Assembly: GCF_019218285.1 (NCBI RefSeq)
Contig: NZ_JAHUZG010000002.1
Span: 1,302,001-1,366,000, forward strand
Origin: Antarctobacter sediminis
GTDB taxonomy: Bacteria > Pseudomonadota > Alphaproteobacteria > Rhodobacterales > Rhodobacteraceae
DNA length: 64,000 nucleotides
Direction: 5' to 3'
A model generated the notes under the pieces. It searched no databases. It saw nothing but the letters and a program-made list of their open reading frames with translations, and had not been told where the DNA came from. Position 1 is the first letter of the stretch. The number at the start of each line of letters is the position of its first letter. The position numbers and the translations under genes were made by a program. Below, piece after piece: positions 10,839-21,691 of the stretch.

Positions 10839-11741
10839 ATGGATATTCGCCAACAAGACATCGGCCTTCTGATGGCGCTGGACGTGCTGTTCGCCGAACG
10901 GAATGTGACGCGCGCGGCCGCTCGCATGAATCTTAGCCAGCCTGCCATGTCCGCACAGCTCGCGCGGCTCCGGGACTTGTTCGGGGATCCGCTATTGATC
11001 CCATCCGGTCGAACGATGATCCTGACAAGCCGCGCCGAAGCCTTGAAGGCTCCGCTTTCGCAGGCGCTGGCGGATCTGTCCGCGGTCTTGCAAGAAGGGC
11101 AAGGGTTTTACCCGTTTACCTCGGCCCGCGTCTTTTGCATCGCCGCATCTGATTATGTCCATCGCACCGTGACGCTGCCCGCGCTCAGCTGGCTTGCGAA
11201 AACCGCGCCGAAAGTGCGGATCGCCCTTTTGCCCTTGGACACGGCAAGATCGTGGCACGCGCTGGAACAAGGGAAGGTCGACCTGCTGATCACATCGGAT
11301 CGGTTGACGCCTCAGGATGCCAAGGCGCGCAGGCTGTACACAGAGAGTTTTGTCTTTGCACAGCGCATGGCCCATCCACGCGGGACCTGCCTGCCGTCAC
11401 TGGATGAATTCTGTAGCCTTGACCACGTCCTTGTGTCCCCGGAGTCGGGTGGGTTCAAAGGAGCGACCGATGAACAGCTTGATGCGTTGGGGCGGTCGCG
11501 CAATGTCGCGGTTTCGGTCCCGTCCTTCCTGCTTGCCCTCCCGCTGTTGCAGACATCTGATCTTGTCGCTGTGCTGCCAAAGCGTCTGGCCCAATCGCCG
11601 GACGTAGAATTGGCCGCCTTTCCCTTGCCTTTCGAGGCGGTCAAATTCGACATCATGCTGTCGTGGCACCCCCGAAGCGACAAGGACAGCGGCCACAAAT
11701 GGTTGCGGGACAGCATCTTCGACAAGGATATGCGGGTGTAA
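10839..11741 (+). CDS. LysR-family transcriptional regulator
   Basis: 300 residues. The N-terminal helix-turn-helix is clear (LFAERNVTRAAARMNLSQPAMSAQLARLR), followed by an effector domain that ends in DSGHKWLRDSIF, as in the NodD/NahR-like branch. It belongs to the same broad subtype as the regulator at 6665 but is clearly divergent in sequence. It is transcribed away from the MFS exporter and most likely regulates it. The inducer is unknown. Confidence 0.9.
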   Translation: MDIRQQDIGLLMALDVLFAERNVTRAAARMNLSQPAMSAQLARLRDLFGDPLLIPSGRTMILTSRAEALKAPLSQALADLSAVLQEGQGFYPFTSARVFCIAASDYVHRTVTLPALSWLAKTAPKVRIALLPLDTARSWHALEQGKVDLLITSDRLTPQDAKARRLYTESFVFAQRMAHPRGTCLPSLDEFCSLDHVLVSPESGGFKGATDEQLDALGRSRNVAVSVPSFLLALPLLQTSDLVAVLPKRLAQSPDVELAAFPLPFEAVKFDIMLSWHPRSDKDSGHKWLRDSIFDKDMRV

Positions 11742-11819: not shown

Positions 11820-11836
11820 TGTGAATTTTTTTCACA
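11820..11836. promoter_or_regulatory. Inverted repeat TGTGAA-N5-TTCACA upstream of importer operon
   Basis: TGTGAA (11820-11825), TTTTT, TTCACA (11831-11836) is a perfect 6-bp inverted repeat. It contains the T-N11-A core expected of LysR operators and lies 121 bases before the substrate-binding protein gene. The identical half sites with the same 5-base spacer occur at 18036-18052, next to the LysR gene at 17084-17980. The shared operator is seen in sequence; the identity of the binding protein is inferred. Confidence 0.65.
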
Positions 11837-11957
11837 AATGACGCGAGAATTTGCTCCCTACTGAACAGGCGGGTTTCCAACGACCCTGACTCGCATCGCG
11901 GACATGACCGGCAGGAGGAGCCGGGCGCCGCAGATGATGTGGAAAGGGAGGAAATTC

Positions 11958-13067
11958 ATGACAACGCTTGGAACCCTGTTGAAACGGGCGGGCACTGCCG
12001 CACTTCTTGCCGGACTCAGCCTGACTTCTGTCAATGCCGAGACCTATTTGCCGAACTGTTATATCCCGGCCGAGGGCAACGAAAAGATCATCCAATACGA
12101 GGCCAAGGAAGGGCCCTATCGCATCGCGCTGGTCAACGGGCACACCGGTATTCCGTGGCGCGAACAGATGATCCAGAGCGTTCGGGCATGGGCCAACCGC
12201 GCAGAGAACAAGGAAACCATTGGCGAATTGCGCGTGGTATCGACCGGCCCGGATGTGGCCACGCAGATTGCCGCCGTCGATAACTTTATTCAGGCGGGCT
12301 ATGACGCCATCGTTTTCATCGCGGTGAACCCGACGGCCTTTGATGCGGTTGTGCGACGCGCAAATCGCGCCGGAACGGTTTTGGTTTCTTTCGATAACCC
12401 CGTCGACAATGACTCGATCCTGCGGATCACGCCGAACTGGGTCGACTTTGAAACCATCAAGGCCAAGTCGGTTCTGGCGCAGATGCCGGACAAGACGGGC
12501 CGCATCCTCGAAATTCGCGGCATTCAGGGCAATTCAACCGACCGCGATCGTCATGTCGGTGTCGAGCAGGTTCTGGCTGACTACCCGAATGTCGACGTGG
12601 TCGAAGTGGTCGGCAACTGGGACACTGGCACGGTGCAGCGCGTGACCGCCGATGCCTTTGCGGTTCATGGTCAGTTCGACGGTATCATCTGCCAGCACGG
12701 GTGCCGGGGCGTGACCAATGCCATGGCCGCGGCGGACCATCCGGCGGTGCCGGTCGGTGGAGATGCCGAGAATGGCTATGTCAAGGCGATGGCGGGCAAT
12801 GGCATCCCCGGCATTTCGGTTTCGGTGTCGCCGGGCATGGGGCCACTGGCGGTGCGCGCTGCGGTTGCGCTGTTGCAGGGCGAAGCCTTCCCCTCGATGG
12901 CGAACCTGCCGATCCCGAACGTGGAAACCGCCGACATGGTCGCGGGCGTCCACTATTACCCGGACGAGCCGGATACCTTCGAGACCGTCACCGGCTATGC
13001 CACCTGCGGCGCCGATATGGTCTTTACCCCGGACGAACTGCGAAAGCAGTCGTACGCCAACGACTGA
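11958..13067 (+). CDS. Sugar-type ABC transporter periplasmic binding protein
   Basis: 369 residues from the ATG at 11958, preceded by GGGAGG. A signal peptide covers about residues 1-27 (ending SVNAETY). The mature part has the type I periplasmic binding fold of the RbsB/TorT kind: YRIALVNGHTGIPWREQMIQ, then QIAAVDNFIQAGYDAIVFIAVNP, then GDAENGYVKAMA. It would deliver a ligand to the ATPase and two permeases encoded directly downstream. The family often takes up monosaccharides or polyols, but the residues that define the ligand cannot be read here. A hairpin after the stop may lower expression of the downstream genes relative to this one. Confidence 0.9.
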   Translation: MTTLGTLLKRAGTAALLAGLSLTSVNAETYLPNCYIPAEGNEKIIQYEAKEGPYRIALVNGHTGIPWREQMIQSVRAWANRAENKETIGELRVVSTGPDVATQIAAVDNFIQAGYDAIVFIAVNPTAFDAVVRRANRAGTVLVSFDNPVDNDSILRITPNWVDFETIKAKSVLAQMPDKTGRILEIRGIQGNSTDRDRHVGVEQVLADYPNVDVVEVVGNWDTGTVQRVTADAFAVHGQFDGIICQHGCRGVTNAMAAADHPAVPVGGDAENGYVKAMAGNGIPGISVSVSPGMGPLAVRAAVALLQGEAFPSMANLPIPNVETADMVAGVHYYPDEPDTFETVTGYATCGADMVFTPDELRKQSYAND

Positions 13068-13077
13068 TTGCCATCGC

Positions 13078-13105
13078 AAGGCTCCGGACCCTGTTTCGGG
13101 GCCTT
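13078..13105 (+). terminator. Intercistronic hairpin after binding-protein gene
   Basis: AAGGCTCCG (13078-13086) pairs with CGGGGCCTT (13097-13105), nine pairs with one G-U. It lies between the binding-protein and ATPase genes. Such structures commonly protect the upstream message or cause partial termination, so that binding protein exceeds transporter; that role is inferred. Confidence 0.5.
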
Positions 13106-13126
13106 TGCCATTGGGAGGACATAGCG

Positions 13127-14665
13127 ATGGCCAAGACATCCGCATTTCTGAAACTTGACGGAATTAGCAAACATTACGGTGGCGTCTTTGCGCTGGACAA
13201 CGTGCATTTCGAAGCCTCGAAAGGGTCGATCCATGCCATTCTCGGCGAGAACGGCGCGGGCAAATCAACCCTGATGAAATCGCTCGTCGGGGTGGTGCAT
13301 CCAGAAGAGGGTCGCATCCTGCTGGACGGGCAGGAATTGCACATGCAGGGCGCCAGCGACGCCGCCCGGCACGGGCTGGTGTGTATCTTTCAAGAGCTGT
13401 CAATCGTGCCGGATCTGAACGTGGCGGCCAATATCTGTTTGGCGGATCCACCGCGCACGCGGCTGGGTCTGATCGACCGACGTGAACAGGCACGGCTGGC
13501 CCGTGCAACCCTGAAAGAGATGGGCGTCGGACTGGACATCGACGTGCGCAGCAAGGTGGCGGACTTGCCGCTGTCCAAGCGTCAGATCGTCGAGATTGCC
13601 AAGGCTGTTATCCGCAAACCCAAGGTTCTGATCCTTGACGAAGCCACATCGGCCCTGACGGCGGCGGACGTGGAACCTGTTATGGCTCTGCTGCGCCGCC
13701 TTCGCGACGAAGGCACCCTGATCCTGTTCATCTCGCACCGTATGCACGAGGTCGAGGCGCTGGCTGACACCTGTTCTGTCTTTCGGAACGGTGCACATGT
13801 GGAAACCTTTGCCACCGGAAGCCGCAGCGATGACGAGATCGTCCAGATGATGATCGGCAAACCGCTGTCCCAGATCTTTCCCGCAAAGCCGGGCGGGGTG
13901 CCCGAGGCCGCCCCTTATCTCGAAACCCGGGGGCTTTGCTGGAATGACCGGCTCAAAGGGGTCGATCTGGCGGTGCGCCCGGGCGAGATCGTCGGCCTTG
14001 GCGGGCTGGACGGCCAAGGGCAACAAGAGGTGTTGCAGGCACTGGCCGGTATCCTGCGCGGCGTAACCGGCGAGATCCGCATTGGCGCGCGTCGCGAGGT
14101 TCCCGACGGACCGCGCGGTGGCCTGTCCAGCGATTATGGCGTTGCTTTGGTGCCCGAGGATCGCAAGACGGGCGGTCTGTTCCTTCCGCAATCCATTGCC
14201 AACAACCTGACGGCCCCGATCCTAGACCGGATCAGCCCGCGCGGCGTTGTCAGTGAGACCCGCGAACAAGCCCTGATCGACGAGATGATACGGACCCTGC
14301 GGATCAAGGTCAGCAGTGGCGATCTTGCCGTTTCGACCCTGTCCGGCGGCAACCAGCAAAAGGTGGTCATCGCGAAATGGCTGGCGACACGGCCCAGGCT
14401 GTTGCTGTTGATCGACCCGACACGCGGGATCGACGTCGGCACCAAGCAGGAAATCTATCGCCTGCTGCGCGATCTGGCCGAGGATGGCTTGGCGATCCTG
14501 CTCTACACCACGGATTATGACGAGCTGATCGGTCTCTGTGACCGTGCGCTTGTCATGTACGACGGCCGGATCAACGCAGAGCTTTCCGGCCACCAACTCA
14601 CCGAACAGAACATCCTGTCCAGCGCGCTCAACATGGGCGCCGGTGCAGAAGAAAGGGTGGCATGA
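13127..14665 (+). CDS. Sugar-type ABC transporter ATP-binding protein (two ABC domains)
   Basis: 512 residues from the ATG at 13127, preceded by GGGAGGA. This is the duplicated RbsA/MglA-type ATPase. The first domain has Walker A GENGAGKST, a degenerate signature LSKRQIVEIAKA and Walker B VLILDEATSAL. The second has a degenerate Walker A region (GLDGQGQQE) and an intact signature LSGGNQQKVVIAK, then LLLIDPTRGIDVGTK. This asymmetry is normal for CUT2-class importers. Its stop overlaps the next ATG (ATGA), so translation with the first permease is coupled. Confidence 0.93.
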   Translation: MAKTSAFLKLDGISKHYGGVFALDNVHFEASKGSIHAILGENGAGKSTLMKSLVGVVHPEEGRILLDGQELHMQGASDAARHGLVCIFQELSIVPDLNVAANICLADPPRTRLGLIDRREQARLARATLKEMGVGLDIDVRSKVADLPLSKRQIVEIAKAVIRKPKVLILDEATSALTAADVEPVMALLRRLRDEGTLILFISHRMHEVEALADTCSVFRNGAHVETFATGSRSDDEIVQMMIGKPLSQIFPAKPGGVPEAAPYLETRGLCWNDRLKGVDLAVRPGEIVGLGGLDGQGQQEVLQALAGILRGVTGEIRIGARREVPDGPRGGLSSDYGVALVPEDRKTGGLFLPQSIANNLTAPILDRISPRGVVSETREQALIDEMIRTLRIKVSSGDLAVSTLSGGNQQKVVIAKWLATRPRLLLLIDPTRGIDVGTKQEIYRLLRDLAEDGLAILLYTTDYDELIGLCDRALVMYDGRINAELSGHQLTEQNILSSALNMGAGAEERVA

Positions 14666-15630
14666 TGGCTCAGGGCTTTTTCAAAACACATGGGCGCGTG
14701 CTGTTCGCATGGGGAATCTTTGCGATCCTGATGGGGATTTTCCTGTCGGTTCATCCCCGCGGCGCGACGCTGGGCGTGTTCACCACCTGGTCGAACCAAT
14801 GCGCGGCGCTGGCTTTGCTGGCCGTGGGTCAGACGATTGTCGTGCTGTCCAAGGGCATCGACCTGTCCATCGGTCCCATCATGGCGCTGACGAATTGCAT
14901 CGCCTCGCACCTTGTCAACGGCAGCCCCTACGAAGTCGCCTTGGGCGTTCTGGCGGTTGTCGCGGTGGGTGCGCTCTGCGGGCTGGTGAACGGGTTGGTT
15001 GTCGTGGTTGGCAAACTGCAAGCCATCATCGCCACGTTGGCGACCGGCGCGATCTTTACCGGGCTGGCGCTCTTGGTGCGCCCGATTCCCGGCGGAGAGG
15101 TTTCCATCGCGTTGAGTGATGCCATGACGATGGACGTGTTCGGAATGGTGCCCTCGGCCATCCTTGTGATGCTGGGCGCGGTGGCCTTGTGGTATCCGAT
15201 CCGACGCCACCCGATTGGCAGGTCCATCATCGCGGTCGGATCGTCCGAGGCCGCCGCCGAAGCCTCGGGGCTGAACGTCGCGCGGGCCAAGATAGCGGCC
15301 TATACGCTGGGCGGTGTCTTTGCGGCCTTTGGCGGATTGTTCATCGGGTTCCAAACCCTTTCCGGGGATCCGTCGATCGGCCTGACCTATACGCTGAACT
15401 CGATTGCTGCGGTGGTGATCGGCGGCACCATGCTGACCGGAGGCGCGGGCAGCGTCATTGGCTCTATCGCCGGGGCGCTGGTCCTGCGCACCATCGGCAG
15501 CCTGATCTTCTTCATCGGGCTGCAACCGCTGGCGCAACCGCTGTTCGAAGGCACCGTTTTGCTGATCGCGGTGGCCTTTGGCGCAACCCGTCTTTTGAAA
15601 ATCAAGAACCGCATGGAGGTGTTCCAATGA
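14662..15630 (+). CDS. Sugar-type ABC transporter permease 1
   Basis: 322 residues, RbsC-like, with about eight to ten hydrophobic segments. The family motif GIDLSIGPIMALTN is near residues 70-85 and GGTMLTGGAGSVIGSIAGAL is near 260-280. It pairs with the second permease to form the membrane channel of the importer. It overlaps both neighbours by four bases (ATGA), so the three genes are translationally coupled. Confidence 0.92.
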   Translation: MMAQGFFKTHGRVLFAWGIFAILMGIFLSVHPRGATLGVFTTWSNQCAALALLAVGQTIVVLSKGIDLSIGPIMALTNCIASHLVNGSPYEVALGVLAVVAVGALCGLVNGLVVVVGKLQAIIATLATGAIFTGLALLVRPIPGGEVSIALSDAMTMDVFGMVPSAILVMLGAVALWYPIRRHPIGRSIIAVGSSEAAAEASGLNVARAKIAAYTLGGVFAAFGGLFIGFQTLSGDPSIGLTYTLNSIAAVVIGGTMLTGGAGSVIGSIAGALVLRTIGSLIFFIGLQPLAQPLFEGTVLLIAVAFGATRLLKIKNRMEVFQ

Positions 15631-16610
15631 GCAGCGCAGTCAACGACAAGCCGGCGGTCACATGGTCGCTGCCTTTCGACGGGCCGACGCGGTCCGTGTT
15701 CATTGCCATCATCGCTCTGATCCTTGTGGGCGGCGCCTTTTTCCCGCAGTTCTTCTCGCCCTACTATCTTGCGCAGCAAATGCAGAACGGGGCCTTTCTG
15801 GGCATCGTCGCGGCGGGTGCCATGGTGGTTATCCTGCTGGGGCAGATCGACCTTTCCGTCCCATGGACAATGACGGCGGCGGCAACGATTTCAACGGCAG
15901 TGGTCGGAGCAAATCCGCAGGCGGGCATCAGCGAACTGGGCCTGTTGGCGGGTCTGGGCGTCGGGGCACTGGTTGGTTTCGTCAACGGGTTCGGCGTTGC
16001 ATTCCTTCGGATCCCGTCGATGATCTGGACGCTTGCCACCAACAATATCCTTTTGGGCTTGCTGGTCTATTTCAGCGGCTTCTACGCGCTGGCAAGCCAG
16101 CCCTCACCGGTGATGAGCGCGCTTGGCCAAGGAAAGGTATTGGGCTTGCCCGCCGTTGTATTGGTCTGGATCGCGGTTTCCGTGCTGACGATCTTTTTGC
16201 TCAAACGCACCGTCTTTGGCCGAAACGTCTATCTGGTGGGCACGTCGGAACCGGCGGCGTATCTCTCGGCGATCAATACGCGGCGCGTGACCATTCTGGC
16301 CTTTGTTTTTGCCGGGGTGATGAGCGCGCTGGGCGGCATGATGTTGGCCGGATACGCCGGCCAATCCTATCAGCGTATGGGCGATCCCTATTTGTTGCCC
16401 GGCATCGCGGCGGTTGTTCTGGGCGGCACCAGCCTGTTCGGCGGCACCGGCCGATATGCAGGAACCGTGGCCGGTGTGCTGCTGATCACGCTGATGTCCT
16501 CGATGCTGTCGATCATGCAGGCACCAGAGGCCGCCAAGCAGATCGCCTATGGTCTGGTCATCATCGTCATGGTTGGCCTGTACAGCCGCCGCGCAGCGAA
16601 AACGGGGTAA
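15627..16610 (+). CDS. Sugar-type ABC transporter permease 2
   Basis: 327 residues from the ATG at 15627, which overlaps the stop of the first permease. It has the RbsC-like motif GQIDLSVPWTMTAAATIS and, near the C-terminus, GGTSLFGGTGRYAGTVAGVLLI. Two different permease genes in one CUT2 operon imply a heterodimeric channel, which is common in alphaproteobacterial systems. It is followed after six bases by a small cupin-like gene that likely belongs to the same transcript. Confidence 0.92.
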   Translation: MSSAVNDKPAVTWSLPFDGPTRSVFIAIIALILVGGAFFPQFFSPYYLAQQMQNGAFLGIVAAGAMVVILLGQIDLSVPWTMTAAATISTAVVGANPQAGISELGLLAGLGVGALVGFVNGFGVAFLRIPSMIWTLATNNILLGLLVYFSGFYALASQPSPVMSALGQGKVLGLPAVVLVWIAVSVLTIFLLKRTVFGRNVYLVGTSEPAAYLSAINTRRVTILAFVFAGVMSALGGMMLAGYAGQSYQRMGDPYLLPGIAAVVLGGTSLFGGTGRYAGTVAGVLLITLMSSMLSIMQAPEAAKQIAYGLVIIVMVGLYSRRAAKTG

Positions 16611-16616
16611 CGGGTC

Positions 16617-17105
16617 ATGCAAGTCAGAGTCACAAATGCCCCGAACGTCACACCTCCGGCCAACTGGCCGGAGGAACTGCAACAAGAGATATTGCGCAAT
16701 GTCCGGAACGGTTGTGTCGGGCGCTACGTCCTGTCTGAAAACGCGCGCGTGCGGGTTTGGCGGCTGGACCTGGATCCCGGCGAGCGGCTGGGGTTTCATT
16801 GTCATGTGCTGGATTATTTCCATGTTGCCCTGACCGCCGGGACGGCACGGTCGCTGGATCATCACGGCAACGAAGACCGGTACAGCTTTGATCCCGGGCA
16901 GGTGAAACACGTCCAGTTTCAGGAAAAGGAGTTCCTGCTGCACGACCTGGAGAACGTTGGATCAGATCCGTTTTCCGTGCTGATCTGCGAACATCTGCGC
17001 AGCGCGAATGCGCCGCTGCCGATCCCCGATCATGTGCGGGTGAAACCGCGTCACATCGAAGAGGTTCATTGGGCTGCGGCGCTTCACAGCGCGTCGACCA
17101 CGTAG
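16617..17105 (+). CDS. Cupin-like protein, copy 1
   Basis: 162 residues. The central part has a cupin-like pattern, with PGERLGFHCHVLDYFHVAL (first histidine pair) and GQVKHVQFQEKEFLLHDLENVG (later motif), suggesting a small beta-barrel that may bind a metal. It is a clear paralogue of the protein at 20075: both share NG.VG, VRVWRL.L.PGER.GFH.HVL.YF, EF.LHDL.N.G and a closing SANAPLP. It follows the second permease by six bases, so it is part of the importer operon. Its 3' end overlaps the convergent LysR gene by 22 bases. The substrate is unknown; a role in handling the imported compound is inferred from context. Confidence 0.8.
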   Translation: MQVRVTNAPNVTPPANWPEELQQEILRNVRNGCVGRYVLSENARVRVWRLDLDPGERLGFHCHVLDYFHVALTAGTARSLDHHGNEDRYSFDPGQVKHVQFQEKEFLLHDLENVGSDPFSVLICEHLRSANAPLPIPDHVRVKPRHIEEVHWAAALHSASTT

Positions 17106-17980
17106 TCGATAAAGACCCGGATCCGGTTGGCAAGATGCGCATGGTCGACGAACAGCGCCTGCACCGGCTCCGTATCGCCGGGGTTGAACGACTCCAGCAG
17201 GGGGATCAGCCGGCCCTGGGCCACGTCCGGTCCGATGTGGAAATCCGATAGCCGCGCAATGCCCACCCCGGCCAGTGCCATCTGGCGCATGGTTTCACCA
17301 TCGCTGACGCGCAGATTGCCTTTCACCGCCTGATCCAGCCTTTCGGGTTCGCCGTGTTTGCGGCCATCGAAGGGCCAGATGTCGAGGCTGCGCTTGATGT
17401 TGAAGTTGAGGCAATTGTGCCGCTCAAGGTCGGTCGGGTGCTTCGGCGTGCCGAAACGGTCAAGATAGCTTTGCGAGGCCACCACCCGGCGTGGCGTTTC
17501 CAACAGCTTGCGGGCGCGCAGCGAACTGTCTGACAGATGTCCGGTGCGGATCGCGACGTCGGCACGTTCATAGATCAGATCGACCGGCATGTCGGTCTGG
17601 ACAAGGTCCAGCGTGATGCCCGGATAGGCTTCGAGAAAGCCGGGAATGATCGGCATCAGGTAATGCTGGGCGAATGGGATGTTGGAATTGACGCGCAGGG
17701 TGCCACGCGCTTCTTCCGAGGCAGAGGACACCGCGCGTTCCGACTGTTCGATCTCGCTGACAATCATCTGGGCGCGGTCGAAAAAGATCTCGCCTTCGGG
17801 CGTCAGTTGCAGGCCACGGGTCGACCGCACGATCAGCGAGACACCAAGCCGTTCTTCCAACCGGGAGATCAGCTTGGACACGGCCGACGGTGTCAGCCGC
17901 AGCGCCCGCGCCGTGGCCGAAAAGCTGCCATGTTCGACCACGCGCACAAAGATTTCCATTTCTCCGCCGCGATTTATCAT
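17084..17980 (-). CDS. LysR-family regulator of the catabolic module
   Basis: 298 residues, with the N-terminal helix-turn-helix VEHGSFSATARALRLTPSAVSKLISRLEERLG and a C-terminal effector domain typical of the CrgA-like subgroup (GTLRVNSNIPFAQHYLMPIIPGFLEAYP). It sits between the importer operon and the dehydrogenase operon, convergent with the first and divergent from the second. A perfect TGTGAA-N5-TTCACA repeat lies 56 bases upstream of its start, and the same site is found in front of the importer. I infer that it senses a pathway compound and controls both operons. Confidence 0.9.
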   Translation of the reverse strand: MINRGGEMEIFVRVVEHGSFSATARALRLTPSAVSKLISRLEERLGVSLIVRSTRGLQLTPEGEIFFDRAQMIVSEIEQSERAVSSASEEARGTLRVNSNIPFAQHYLMPIIPGFLEAYPGITLDLVQTDMPVDLIYERADVAIRTGHLSDSSLRARKLLETPRRVVASQSYLDRFGTPKHPTDLERHNCLNFNIKRSLDIWPFDGRKHGEPERLDQAVKGNLRVSDGETMRQMALAGVGIARLSDFHIGPDVAQGRLIPLLESFNPGDTEPVQALFVDHAHLANRIRVFIDYVVDAL

Positions 17981-18035
17981 CCCGGTGCCTCCCCCTGACC
18001 ACCATGTCCCACGCGCGGATCATACCCCATCCGGC

Positions 18036-18052
18036 TGTGAAAATAATTCACA
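18036..18052. promoter_or_regulatory. Inverted repeat TGTGAA-N5-TTCACA in LysR / reductase divergent region
   Basis: TGTGAA (18036-18041), AATAA, TTCACA (18047-18052), with a T-N11-A core. It lies between the LysR start (17980) and the PRISE-like gene (18147) and matches the site at 11820-11836 at every repeat position. This is the basis for proposing a single regulon. Confidence 0.7.
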
Positions 18053-18146: not shown

Positions 18147-19214
18147 ATGTACGCCAAGCGCGCGCTAATCGTCGGGGCGACCGGCATTGTCGGCCTGAAT
18201 GTCGCCGAACATCTTCATGCTCTGGGCGGATGGGAAATCCACGGCGTGTCCCGCAGGGCACCGCAGGGCGCATCCTATATCCACAGCCATCAGGTTGATC
18301 TGATGGATCACGACAAGGCGGTTGCGGCGCTGTCGCATCTGTCACCGACCCACATCTATTATTGCTCGTGGACGCTTGGCCAAGACGAGGACGACAACAT
18401 TCGCCTGAACGGCAACATGCTGCGGACCGTTCTGGATGCTTTCAAGGACAAAGGCTGTGTCGAACATGTCGCGGTTGTGACCGGGACCAAACATTACCTC
18501 GGCCCGTTCGAGGATTACGGCAAGGTCACGCCCGTCACGCCGTTCCGCGAAACTGCGCCGCGTTTGGAAAAGAAGAACTTTTACTACGAGCTTGAAGACG
18601 TGGTGATGGAATACAGCGACAAGCACGGCTTTGGCTGGTCGGTGCATCGTTCGCATACCATCATTGGCTACGCGGTTGGCAACCTGATGAACATCGGGGC
18701 GACACTGGCAACCCATGCGTCGATCTGCAAGGCCACCGGCCAACCCTTCCGGTTTCCGGGATCGCCCACCGCCTATCGTGGTCTGAACGACATCACCGAC
18801 GCACGTATCCTTGCCAAGCAGATCGTCTGGGCCTCGACCGAGCCGAACGCCCGGAACGAGGCGTTCAACGCGGTCAACGGGGATGTCTTTCGCTGGGAAC
18901 AGCTGTGGCAGACCATCGCCGAATACTTTGACGTCGAAGTGGCGGAATATCCCGGCGAATACAACTCTCTCGAAGAGCAGATGAAGGACAGCGGCCCGGC
19001 CTGGGACAAGCTGGTCGAAGAGCACAATCTTCAGCGCAACCCGCTGAGCAAGCTGGCCTCTGCATGGCACAGCGATCTGGATCTCGGCCGTCCGATGGAA
19101 TGCGTGCATTCGATGGCCAAATGCCGAGCGCTGGGCTTCGACGCATTTCAGGACACCGCGCAAAGCTTCATCGATGTGTTCGACCGTCTGCGGGCCGAGC
19201 GGATCATCCCCTGA
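18147..19214 (+). CDS. PRISE-like SDR reductase (progesterone 5-beta-reductase / iridoid synthase type)
   Basis: 355 residues from the ATG at 18147, preceded by GGAGGA. The N-terminal Rossmann motif is GATGIVGLNVAEHL. The segment NFYYELEDVVMEY resembles the conserved NFYY..ED motif of PRISE enzymes, which holds their catalytic tyrosine, and WSVHRSHTIIGYA resembles the following family motif. Known PRISE proteins reduce activated C=C bonds of enones with NADPH, but bacterial members are mostly uncharacterised. It is first in an operon with an SDR and the second cupin-like protein. The substrate cannot be read from sequence. Confidence 0.8.
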   Translation: MYAKRALIVGATGIVGLNVAEHLHALGGWEIHGVSRRAPQGASYIHSHQVDLMDHDKAVAALSHLSPTHIYYCSWTLGQDEDDNIRLNGNMLRTVLDAFKDKGCVEHVAVVTGTKHYLGPFEDYGKVTPVTPFRETAPRLEKKNFYYELEDVVMEYSDKHGFGWSVHRSHTIIGYAVGNLMNIGATLATHASICKATGQPFRFPGSPTAYRGLNDITDARILAKQIVWASTEPNARNEAFNAVNGDVFRWEQLWQTIAEYFDVEVAEYPGEYNSLEEQMKDSGPAWDKLVEEHNLQRNPLSKLASAWHSDLDLGRPMECVHSMAKCRALGFDAFQDTAQSFIDVFDRLRAERIIP

Positions 19215-19258: not shown

Positions 19259-20062
19259 ATGACACAGGACCTGAAAGGCAAGGTCGCAATCGTGACCGGG
19301 GCCAGTTCCGGCATCGGGCTGGAAACGACAAGACAATACCTCGCGGCGGGCACCAAGGTGGTCGGCGCGGCACGCAATACCGCGCATCTGAATGACCTCG
19401 CCGGGCCGGACATGATCCGCGCCGTGGACGCGGACCTGACCCAGCCCGACGCCGCCGGGAAGGTGGTGCAGGCTGCGCTGGACAGTTTCGGGCAGGTCGA
19501 CATCCTGTTCAACAATGCCGGCGCCGCACCGGGGCGCGACGGCTTTCTGTCCGTGACCGACGAGATGTGGCAGCGGACCTTTGATCTGAACGTCATGGGG
19601 TATATCCGCATGGCGCGCGCCGTGATCCCGGTGATGGAACGGCAGGGCAAGGGCGTGCTGGTGCATTGCGGATCAGAGGCGGGGATCAAACCGCATCCGT
19701 TGTTGCCGGATTACTCCGTGTCCAAATCCGCGATCAACATGATCTCCAAGATCCTGTCGCGGGATTTCACCCGGCGCGGCATCCGGTCGAATGTCGTGGC
19801 TCCGGCCCATATCCGAACCGAACTTTGGGACGAACCCGGCGGCTTTCTCGATTCACTGGCCGATCACTACGGTGTCCCGCGTGAGGATCGCGACGGTGCG
19901 GTTGCGGCCTTTCTTGAGGACAGCCAGCTTCCGGCGGGGCGGTTGGGCACGCCCGAGGACGTGGCCAAGGCCGTTCTCTACCTGTCTTCGGACATTTCCG
20001 ATTTTGTCAGCGGCATTGTCCTTGGCGTCGATGGCGGCGTCGTGCCGTCACTGCAAACCTGA
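19259..20062 (+). CDS. Short-chain dehydrogenase/reductase
   Basis: 267 residues of the classical SDR type. The cofactor motif is TGASSGIG near residues 14-21, NNAG is near 83-86, and the active-site pattern is YSVSKSA near 157-163. The C-terminal portion (DISDFVSGIVLGVDGGV) is typical of dehydrogenases acting on sugars, polyols or acyl substrates. GGAGGAGG precedes the ATG. It is in an operon with the PRISE-like reductase (44 bases upstream) and the second cupin-like gene (12 bases downstream). An oxidation step in the catabolic module is inferred. Confidence 0.9.
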   Translation: MTQDLKGKVAIVTGASSGIGLETTRQYLAAGTKVVGAARNTAHLNDLAGPDMIRAVDADLTQPDAAGKVVQAALDSFGQVDILFNNAGAAPGRDGFLSVTDEMWQRTFDLNVMGYIRMARAVIPVMERQGKGVLVHCGSEAGIKPHPLLPDYSVSKSAINMISKILSRDFTRRGIRSNVVAPAHIRTELWDEPGGFLDSLADHYGVPREDRDGAVAAFLEDSQLPAGRLGTPEDVAKAVLYLSSDISDFVSGIVLGVDGGVVPSLQT

Positions 20063-20074
20063 AAGGGGCGAGAC

Positions 20075-20482
20075 ATGAGCAAATTGACCAGCAATGACCA
20101 GATCGCCCCGGGTGCCGATTGGGATGACACCCGCAAGGCCGAACTGGAAACCAACCGGATGAACGGCCGCGTCGGTCAGGATCTGATTTCCGAAACCGAG
20201 GATGTGCGCGTATGGCGTCTGGCCCTGCAACCCGGCGAACGGGCGGGATTTCACCGCCATGTGCTGAACTACTTCTGGGTCGCTATCAACCCGGGCAAAT
20301 CCCGGTCCCACTATGCAACCGGAGAGGTCCGGGACGCCGATTACAAGGCGGGGGACGTCATGCACTTCGAATTCGGTGAGGGCGAATTCATGCTGCACGA
20401 TCTGGCCAATATCGGAGACACTGAACTGATCTTCACCACGGTGGAGTTCAAGAATTCCGCGAACGCGCCGCTGCCTGTCTGA
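20075..20482 (+). CDS. Cupin-like protein, copy 2
   Basis: 135 residues. The cupin-like features are PGERAGFHRHVLNYFWVAI and GDVMHFEFGEGEFMLHDLANIGD. It is a paralogue of the protein at 16617, with conserved VRVWRL, PGER.GFH.HVL.YF, EF.LHDL.N.G and terminal SANAPLP. Here it is the last gene of the dehydrogenase operon, whereas its partner closes the importer operon. A terminator-like hairpin follows. The function is unknown; a pocket for the shared pathway compound or an isomerase role is possible. Confidence 0.8.
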   Translation: MSKLTSNDQIAPGADWDDTRKAELETNRMNGRVGQDLISETEDVRVWRLALQPGERAGFHRHVLNYFWVAINPGKSRSHYATGEVRDADYKAGDVMHFEFGEGEFMLHDLANIGDTELIFTTVEFKNSANAPLPV

Positions 20483-20551: not shown

Positions 20552-21691
20552 ATGCTGCGCACCCGTGCCGCCGTCGCCCTTGAGCCCGGCAAACCGCTAG
20601 AAATCATGGACGTCAACCTCGAAGGGCCGAAGGCTGGTGAGGTCCTTGTCGAAATCAAGGCCACAGGCCTTTGTCATACGGATGAATTTACCCGCTCAGG
20701 CGCGGATCCCGAAGGGCTGTTCCCGTCGATCCTTGGCCATGAGGGCGCGGGCGTTGTGGTCGAGGTGGGCGAGGGCGTCACCACCCTGAAACCCGGCGAC
20801 CACGTGATCCCGCTTTACACGCCCGAATGCCGTGAATGCCACGCCTGCCTGTCGGGCAAGACCAACCTCTGCACGGCCATTCGCGGCACACAGGGACAAG
20901 GCCTGATGCCGGATGGCACTACCCGCTTTTCCATGCTCGATGGCACGCCGATCTATCACTACATGGGCTGTTCGACCTTCGCGAACCATACCGTGATGCC
21001 CGAGATCGCGCTGGCCAAGGTGCGCGACGACGCGCCTTTCGACAAGATCTGTTATATCGGCTGTGGCGTGACGACGGGCATTGGCGCGGTCATCAACACG
21101 GCCGGAGTCGAAATCGGCGCGACTGCGGCGGTATTCGGTCTTGGGGGGATTGGGCTCAACGTGATCCAGGGGTTGCGCATGGCCGGGGCGGACAGGATCA
21201 TCGGTGTCGATCTCAATGACGACAAGGCCGGAATGGCCCGCAAGTTCGGCATGACGGATTTTGTGAACCCTTCGAAGTTGCCCGGCGGCCAGTCCGTCAC
21301 CCAGACCATCATCGACATGACCAAGACGGAAAAAGATCCGTTTGGCGGTGTGGATTATTCGTTCGATGCCACCGGGAATGTGCAGGTGATGCGCGACGCA
21401 CTGGAATGTTCGCACCGGGGCTGGGGTGTGTCCGTTGTCATCGGCGTTGCGCCTTCGGGGGCTGAAATCTCGACGCGACCGTTTCAACTTGTGACCGGAC
21501 GGGTCTGGAAAGGGACCGCCTTTGGTGGCGCCAAGGGGCGCACCGACGTGCCGAAACTTGTCGATTGGTACATGGACGGCAAGATCGAGATCGACTCGAT
21601 GATCACGCACAAGCTGACCCTTGACCAGATCAACGAAGGGTTTGACCTGATGCATCAGGGCAAATCCATCCGCGCCGTGGTCGAGTTCTGA
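20552..21691 (+). CDS. frmA: Class III alcohol dehydrogenase (S-(hydroxymethyl)glutathione dehydrogenase type)
   Basis: 379 residues. It is a zinc medium-chain dehydrogenase: GLCHTDEF (catalytic zinc Cys), GHEGAGVV, the structural zinc loop [15 protein letters not shown], and the NAD-binding motif [12 protein letters not shown]. The segment [25 protein letters not shown] is characteristic of class III enzymes, which oxidise S-hydroxymethylglutathione formed from formaldehyde. It follows the SDR/cupin operon after a terminator, so it may have its own promoter. In this setting it could remove formaldehyde or oxidise a pathway alcohol; the general reaction is fairly sure, the link to the locus is not. 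Confidence 0.88.

Follow-up and report, generated by a model that had tools for sequence, protein, structure and literature searches.

Does one regulator tie the uptake of a compound to the first steps of its conversion in Antarctobacter sediminis? The question is raised by a stretch of 64,000 nucleotides from this bacterium (the window; contig NZ_JAHUZG010000002.1), in which the gene for a LysR-type regulator (17084..17980, minus strand) lies between two operons. The first codes for a CUT2-type ATP-binding cassette (ABC) importer. The second codes for a reductase of the PRISE family and a short-chain dehydrogenase (SDR), and the LysR gene is divergent from it, running back toward the importer operon. 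The palindrome TGTGAA-N5-TTCACA stands ahead of both operons, and the reading preferred here, to which a probability of roughly 0.83 is given, is that this YafC/CrgA-like, self-regulating LysR controls the two jointly.

Two palindromes and the regulator between the operons

Computation shows two exact matches to TGTGAANNNNNTTCACA in the window: operator 1 (11820..11836, TGTGAATTTTTTTCACA), upstream of the importer operon, and operator 2 (18036..18052, TGTGAAAATAATTCACA), in the gap between the LysR and PRISE genes. Neither is assigned a strand, and both are called from the pattern match together with the relatives described below. All 12 specified bases are matched at each site with zero mismatches. 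The two have their half sites, the N5 spacer length and the T-N11-A core in common, as the preliminary description had claimed, and the gene positions agree with its statement that the LysR gene at 17084 lies between the operons and beside one copy. Its term "identical operator" holds for the half sites and the spacing, but not for the spacer bases, which are TTTTT at operator 1 and AATAA at operator 2. The distance from operator 1 to the start of the importer's binding protein (11958) is 121 bp, and that from operator 2 to the PRISE start (18147) is 94 bp, with LysR on the other side. The window thus has a feature of LysR membership, namely a T-N11-A palindrome in the regulator's own divergent promoter region. 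With up to two mismatches allowed, five matches occur in the window against 1.2 expected, a number reached in 0 of 100 shuffles, and the 12/12 score was reached in 0 of 1000 dinucleotide shuffles for each of the two upstream regions.

Two other operator types were rejected on spacing. The CRP-type operator is TGTGA-N6-TCACA, while in both window sites TGTGA and TCACA are 7 bases apart; the PpsR/CrtJ operator is TGT-N12-ACA, and here TGT and ACA are separated by 11 bases rather than 12.

The LysR protein carries the HTH_1 domain (81.1 bits, cutoff 26.6) and the LysR_substrate domain (127.3 bits, cutoff 28), in common with the YafC/CrgA group. Its best NCBIfam model is YafC (NF040888), with 302.4 bits, which lies under the curated cutoff of 470, so that the equivalog level is not reached. 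The best match to a solved structure is 3hhg, which we take to be CrgA of Neisseria meningitidis. The candidate operator differs from those of its nearest known kin: upstream of E. coli yafC the site is degenerate, with 9/12 at best (-48), and the sites of Pseudomonas CrgA described in PMC6422896 are imperfect mirror repeats unlike TGTGAA-N5-TTCACA. Another LysR of E. coli, PtrR (YneJ), is comparable in having a short palindrome, TTCTCGATTCGTGAA, at its own divergent promoter; its motif, however, has the half sites in reverse order and its targets are other ones, according to PMC9068703. Among the papers listed by literature searches on the motif and LysR, none pointed to a TGTGAA-N5-TTCACA site, and for YafC, CrgA and LysR regulons PMC6422896 was the one useful paper.

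Conservation and association with a LysR subfamily

When 84,980 species were scanned with the LysR protein, a search that detected close relatives only, seven loci were returned, five of them with the same arrangement. These are from Shimia (L050; LysR identity 95%; site scores 11/12 at the importer and 12/12 on the LysR side), two Rhodobacteraceae metagenome-assembled genomes (L051, 94%, 12/12 and 12/12; L052, 77%, 11/12 and 10/12) and two Mesorhizobium (L053 and L054, each 67%, 11/12 and 12/12). Conservation computed in this way is complete: both sites are kept in 5/5 relatives, and the absence from relatives with the same gene order that the preliminary description had named as a counter-finding is not seen. 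With the window included, a site of at least 10/12 is present upstream of the importer in 6/6 genomes and on the LysR side in 6/6. The observed score was reached in at most 2 of 1000 shuffles for 11 of the 12 regions, and in 32 of 1000 for the LysR side of L052. In five of the six genomes (all but L052) the site lies 94, 94, 94, 96 and 95 bp from the divergent start. In Mesorhizobium the divergent neighbour of LysR is a second LysR gene, and a comparison of the flanks with those of the window, by eye, aligns the palindrome and not the surrounding DNA.

The association with the regulator's subfamily was computed from 29 fetched LysR homologues, 44-55% identical, which were found among 385 class-level genomes and scored over 120 bp upstream. 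In this closer set a site of at least 10/12 precedes 12 of the 29 genes (0.11 in shuffles), and one of at least 9/12 precedes 18 (1.17 in shuffles). Among 21 more distant homologues each threshold is reached once (0.07 and 0.77 in shuffles, respectively). Other spacer lengths (0-11, excluding 5) give 0-3 sites at 10/12 in the closer set and 0-1 in the distant one. Relative to the LysR start, 11 of the 12 sites scoring at least 10/12 stand at -26 to -30, and 15 of the 18 scoring at least 9/12 stand 26-32 bp ahead of it. Both Mesorhizobium genomes have a 55% LysR paralogue whose 11/12 site stands at -30. Mapped on a quick tree built from 71 LysR proteins, the site label requires 12 changes, compared with 21.9 when shuffled (0 of 500 as low), and is therefore clustered. 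The link between TGTGAA-N5-TTCACA and the subfamily of the 17084 LysR is thus strong.

Farther afield, PRISE orthologues occur in plasmid records of Ensifer and Pararhizobium (83% identity) and Shinella (75%). Of the five 83% records three were fetched, as was that of Shinella; the LysR neighbours of PRISE in the three genera are 48-52% identical to the window LysR, and the LysR/PRISE gap holds a 10/12 site in 3/3 of the Ensifer/Pararhizobium loci (3 to 7 of 1000 shuffles). Paraburkholderia terrae has the importer orthologues (56-63%; permease 2 was compared with that of Mesorhizobium), PRISE and SDR all on one strand in a single gene run, and a shared pathway is therefore supported. At its LysR gene (48% identity) a 10/12 site faces the gene for an alkene reductase. 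This run, on plasmid pPT365 (L157 1-17065), also holds a second sugar-type importer, the alkene reductase and glutathione-dependent formaldehyde genes. Nearer to the window, 15 of the 390 genomes scanned from its order have PRISE (E up to 1e-30), the other 14 all lying outside the window's genus; in five same-genus genomes the best LysR match has an E value of 7.6e-52 or worse, compared with 1.5e-197 for the window gene itself. Judged by these records, the importer/LysR/PRISE cluster is sporadic and partly plasmid-borne, as would be expected of an accessory catabolic module.

The same word at other promoters, and rival explanations

A pattern scan of the whole genome (5.12 Mb, 21 contigs, neighbouring genes called by a simple script) finds 4 exact copies of TGTGAA-N5-TTCACA, and 8 places with at most one mismatch against 1 for a reversed control pattern. 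Because of these counts, and of the shuffle results, the copies are non-random yet not unique. The preliminary description had held that many unrelated sites would count against it. There is no such flood, with 8 places of which 2 are the window pair, but the word does recur outside that pair: beside a LysR paralogue, at a DUF2852 gene and at three further places, two of them intragenic (C1:1364755 and C2:1006005; thiamine-pyrophosphate enzyme, glycosyltransferase) and one between a TetR-type gene and its neighbour (C2:1482565). The word is also used by other regulators and is therefore not private to the importer/PRISE regulon; alone, it is insufficient to define it.

The copy at C1:716877 is exact and adjoins a paralogue of the same LysR subfamily (45% identity, C1:715992-716864); it stands at -29 and ends 12 bp ahead of the paralogue's start. 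A weaker copy, TGTGAATTCAGTTCCAA (two mismatches), lies upstream of the adjoining [2Fe-2S]/molybdopterin-binding genes. The 45% LysR and this adjacent gene pair occupy L040 4982-8894 (C1, about 713-717 kb), a locus that likely represents a paralogous LysR regulon. Cross-talk, in which the paralogue also binds the window sites and the regulon is common to two regulators, would find room in the identical half sites and in the alike segments TPSAVSKL (17084 LysR) and TPSTVSKL (paralogue), which are presumably the recognition helix. It is nonetheless unlikely, since the paralogue's spacer is TTCAC and not TTTTT or AATAA, and in the relatives it is a close LysR orthologue that the importer/PRISE pair accompanies.

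A different setting is provided by the copies at C1:660337 and C1:660396, 59 bp apart and one of them exact, which precede a DUF2852 gene and mark a separate promoter. The pair (C1:660336-660413; L039 7337-7414) stands before the DUF2852 gene (PF11014) and an RDD-family gene, with glnE nearby. Across the window's family, 92 of 149 genomes contain the exact word and 3 the control, a count that at first sight resembles the counter-finding of many unrelated sites. In 27 of 29 fetched word-bearing loci the copy precedes a DUF2852 homologue (PF11014, 154.6 bits). In 24 of the 27, as well as in the window's genome and two relatives, there is a second palindrome at a distance of 58-60 bp; the two bracket a promoter-like CTTG...CGATCT stretch, and the core is extended to ATGTRAA-N5-TTNACAT. 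By pattern match alone, 103 of 149 family genomes have the pair, each of them a single time (reversed control 0); among 289 class-level genomes 4 have it, and these 4 belong to the window's own family. The spacers are 51% A+T at the DUF2852 sites (28 spacers) versus 78% at the LysR sites (25 spacers), and no LysR of the subfamily was found beside the DUF2852 promoter in the three loci tested (L039, L079, L087). This promoter most likely belongs to a separate system employing the same word, and matches to the word must therefore be read with their context.

It could be supposed that the family-wide regulator of this promoter binds both window sites, given that the word is kept there across the family, the window's genome included. 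Such control is distinctly improbable: the DUF2852 element is a pair with a set distance, an extended core and spacers poorer in A+T, and in the class sample the pair is limited to the window's family, while the LysR-type site stands beside LysR genes in Mesorhizobium, Ensifer and Paraburkholderia.

Still less probable is that the importer is run by another LysR, the 17084 LysR controlling the PRISE operon only. The candidate is a second LysR gene (10839-11741, plus strand) upstream of the importer, which ends 78 bp ahead of operator 1. Its own promoter would be expected at its far end, and the palindrome accompanies homologues of the 17084 LysR. Control by this gene is rejected because a search at E 1e-8 turned up no homologue in the loci fetched from the five relatives with both operons and both sites; this also makes it probably a recent neighbour. 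Coincidence of the two palindromes by chance, for which the small number of sites might speak, can be dismissed in view of the shuffle tests, the genome control and the conservation in 5/5 relatives.

Joint control by the 17084 LysR has several observations to contend with. The promoter scan gave no match at the importer and one weak sigma-70-like match on the LysR side. The six genomes with the gene order amount to about three independent lineages, and in one of them, L052, the LysR-side site scores 10/12 and lies 264 bp from PRISE. No 9/12 site was found within 120 bp upstream of 11 of the 29 closer homologues, and the site label is not one clade on the LysR tree. No site was seen in the LysR/PRISE gap of Shinella (7/12) or upstream of the Paraburkholderia terrae importer (8/12). 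A site between transketolase and amidohydrolase genes, described below for L052, is missing from the same genes in L053, L054 and L153-L155. The operator word, finally, serves a family promoter beside which, in the three loci tested, no LysR of the subfamily was found. The proposal of two operons of one catabolic regulon is thus backed by the 5/5 conservation and the LysR-palindrome link, and weakened by a word common to other regulators and missing in some relatives.

The operons and the predicted response

The importer operon, on the plus strand throughout, codes for a periplasmic sugar-type binding protein (CUT2, Peripla_BP_4; 11958..13067), a double-domain ABC ATPase (13127..14665), permease 1 (BPD_transp_2; 14662..15630), permease 2 (BPD_transp_2; 15627..16610) and small protein 1 (16617..17105). 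The start of the binding protein was picked for the preceding GGGAGG and the starts of homologues. The first three products were assigned by domain searches, and permease 2 by tblastn with the Shimia permease (95% identity; 109 bits, cutoff 26.8). All membership features of the CUT2 sugar importers (ribose/xylose/arabinose type) are present, namely the Peripla_BP_4 protein, the two-domain ATPase and the two BPD_transp_2 permeases, but for the three subunits that were tested the listed models (ATPase: best 25 of 188) include no equivalog that reaches its cutoff. Two open reading frames may mislead annotation by length: 15662-16735 (358 aa) is another frame over the true permease 2, and 12701-14665 (GTG, 654 aa) starts too early over the ATPase gene.

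The second operon, also on the plus strand, codes for PRISE (18147..19214), the SDR (19259..20062, from domain searches) and small protein 2 (20075..20482). PRISE scores 75.8 bits with PF22917 (cutoff 27) and matches progesterone 5-beta-reductase 2v6f, which we take to be the foxglove enzyme, with an E value of 3e-80. Its TGxKHY and NFYY motifs, which presumably hold the catalytic Lys and Tyr, align with those of 2v6f. By this score and these motifs, which it has in common with the PRISE/VEP1 enone reductases, the product is a true PRISE member; it differs from them in being bacterial and in belonging to an operon that adjoins an importer. Literature searches on PRISE in bacteria returned chiefly plant work, plus one evolutionary study that already describes a spotty distribution with lateral transfer (PMC3144213).

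The two small proteins resemble each other and were called cupin-like, protein 1 being 75% identical to a Shimia protein and protein 2 giving a weak bicupin match (19 bits, cutoff 254); no Pfam family was matched by either, and the cupin label is tentative. The next gene (20552-21691) codes for a class III alcohol dehydrogenase above the NCBIfam cutoff. It is also next in Shimia, and it was left out of the operon because no homologue was found in the loci of the other four relatives.

Genes for an amidohydrolase, a NifU-like protein and the two halves of a split transketolase recur next to PRISE (L052 1390-3472; L053 3118-6532; L153 12229-15593), in some loci together with an aldehyde dehydrogenase, and are read as an unassigned pathway. 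In L052 a third operator (11/12) stands in the gap of a divergent transketolase/amidohydrolase gene pair close to PRISE. These genes were rejected as a third regulon member, the site being present in L052 and in 0 of 5 other loci with them; matches to that transketolase half in the window's genome are all distant (best 30% identity).

From these sequence features, the 17084 LysR is predicted to bind both palindromes, the one in its own divergent PRISE promoter and the copy 121 bp ahead of the importer. The inducer would be the compound brought in by the importer, or one derived from it. In its presence LysR would turn on both operons, that is, the importer with small protein 1, and PRISE with the SDR and small protein 2, while the site by the lysR gene would limit the regulator's own synthesis. 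Inducer-dependent activation and self-repression are general behaviour of the LysR family, and the sign of regulation proposed here is drawn by analogy with it. We infer likewise that one inducer governs uptake and first enzymatic steps, as had been predicted. The inducer is probably a sugar-like compound, or an α,β-unsaturated carbonyl derived from one, because the key enzyme belongs to the enone-reductase family. The enzyme set (PRISE and SDR, and in the relatives also the transketolase halves, amidohydrolase, NifU-like protein and aldehyde dehydrogenase) fits the breakdown of a sugar-like compound via an unsaturated carbonyl.

The mechanism is ordinary for LysR regulators; a question that arises is how cross-talk is prevented between paralogues whose half sites are the same. 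One tentative and rather doubtful idea is that a single LysR subfamily across alpha- and betaproteobacteria uses a near-fixed half site, the regulons of paralogues being separated through accessory contacts or through the A/T-rich bases of the 5-base spacer; the inducer here would be an enone or its sugar-derived precursor, and would start import and enone reduction jointly, as parts of a bacterial PRISE pathway not yet described. For the subfamily, the palindrome is a candidate operator by which the regulons of uncharacterised homologues would become predictable. For the organism, an importer without an assigned substrate and a bacterial PRISE reductase would be tied as one inducible unit, which offers a direct route to the substrate.

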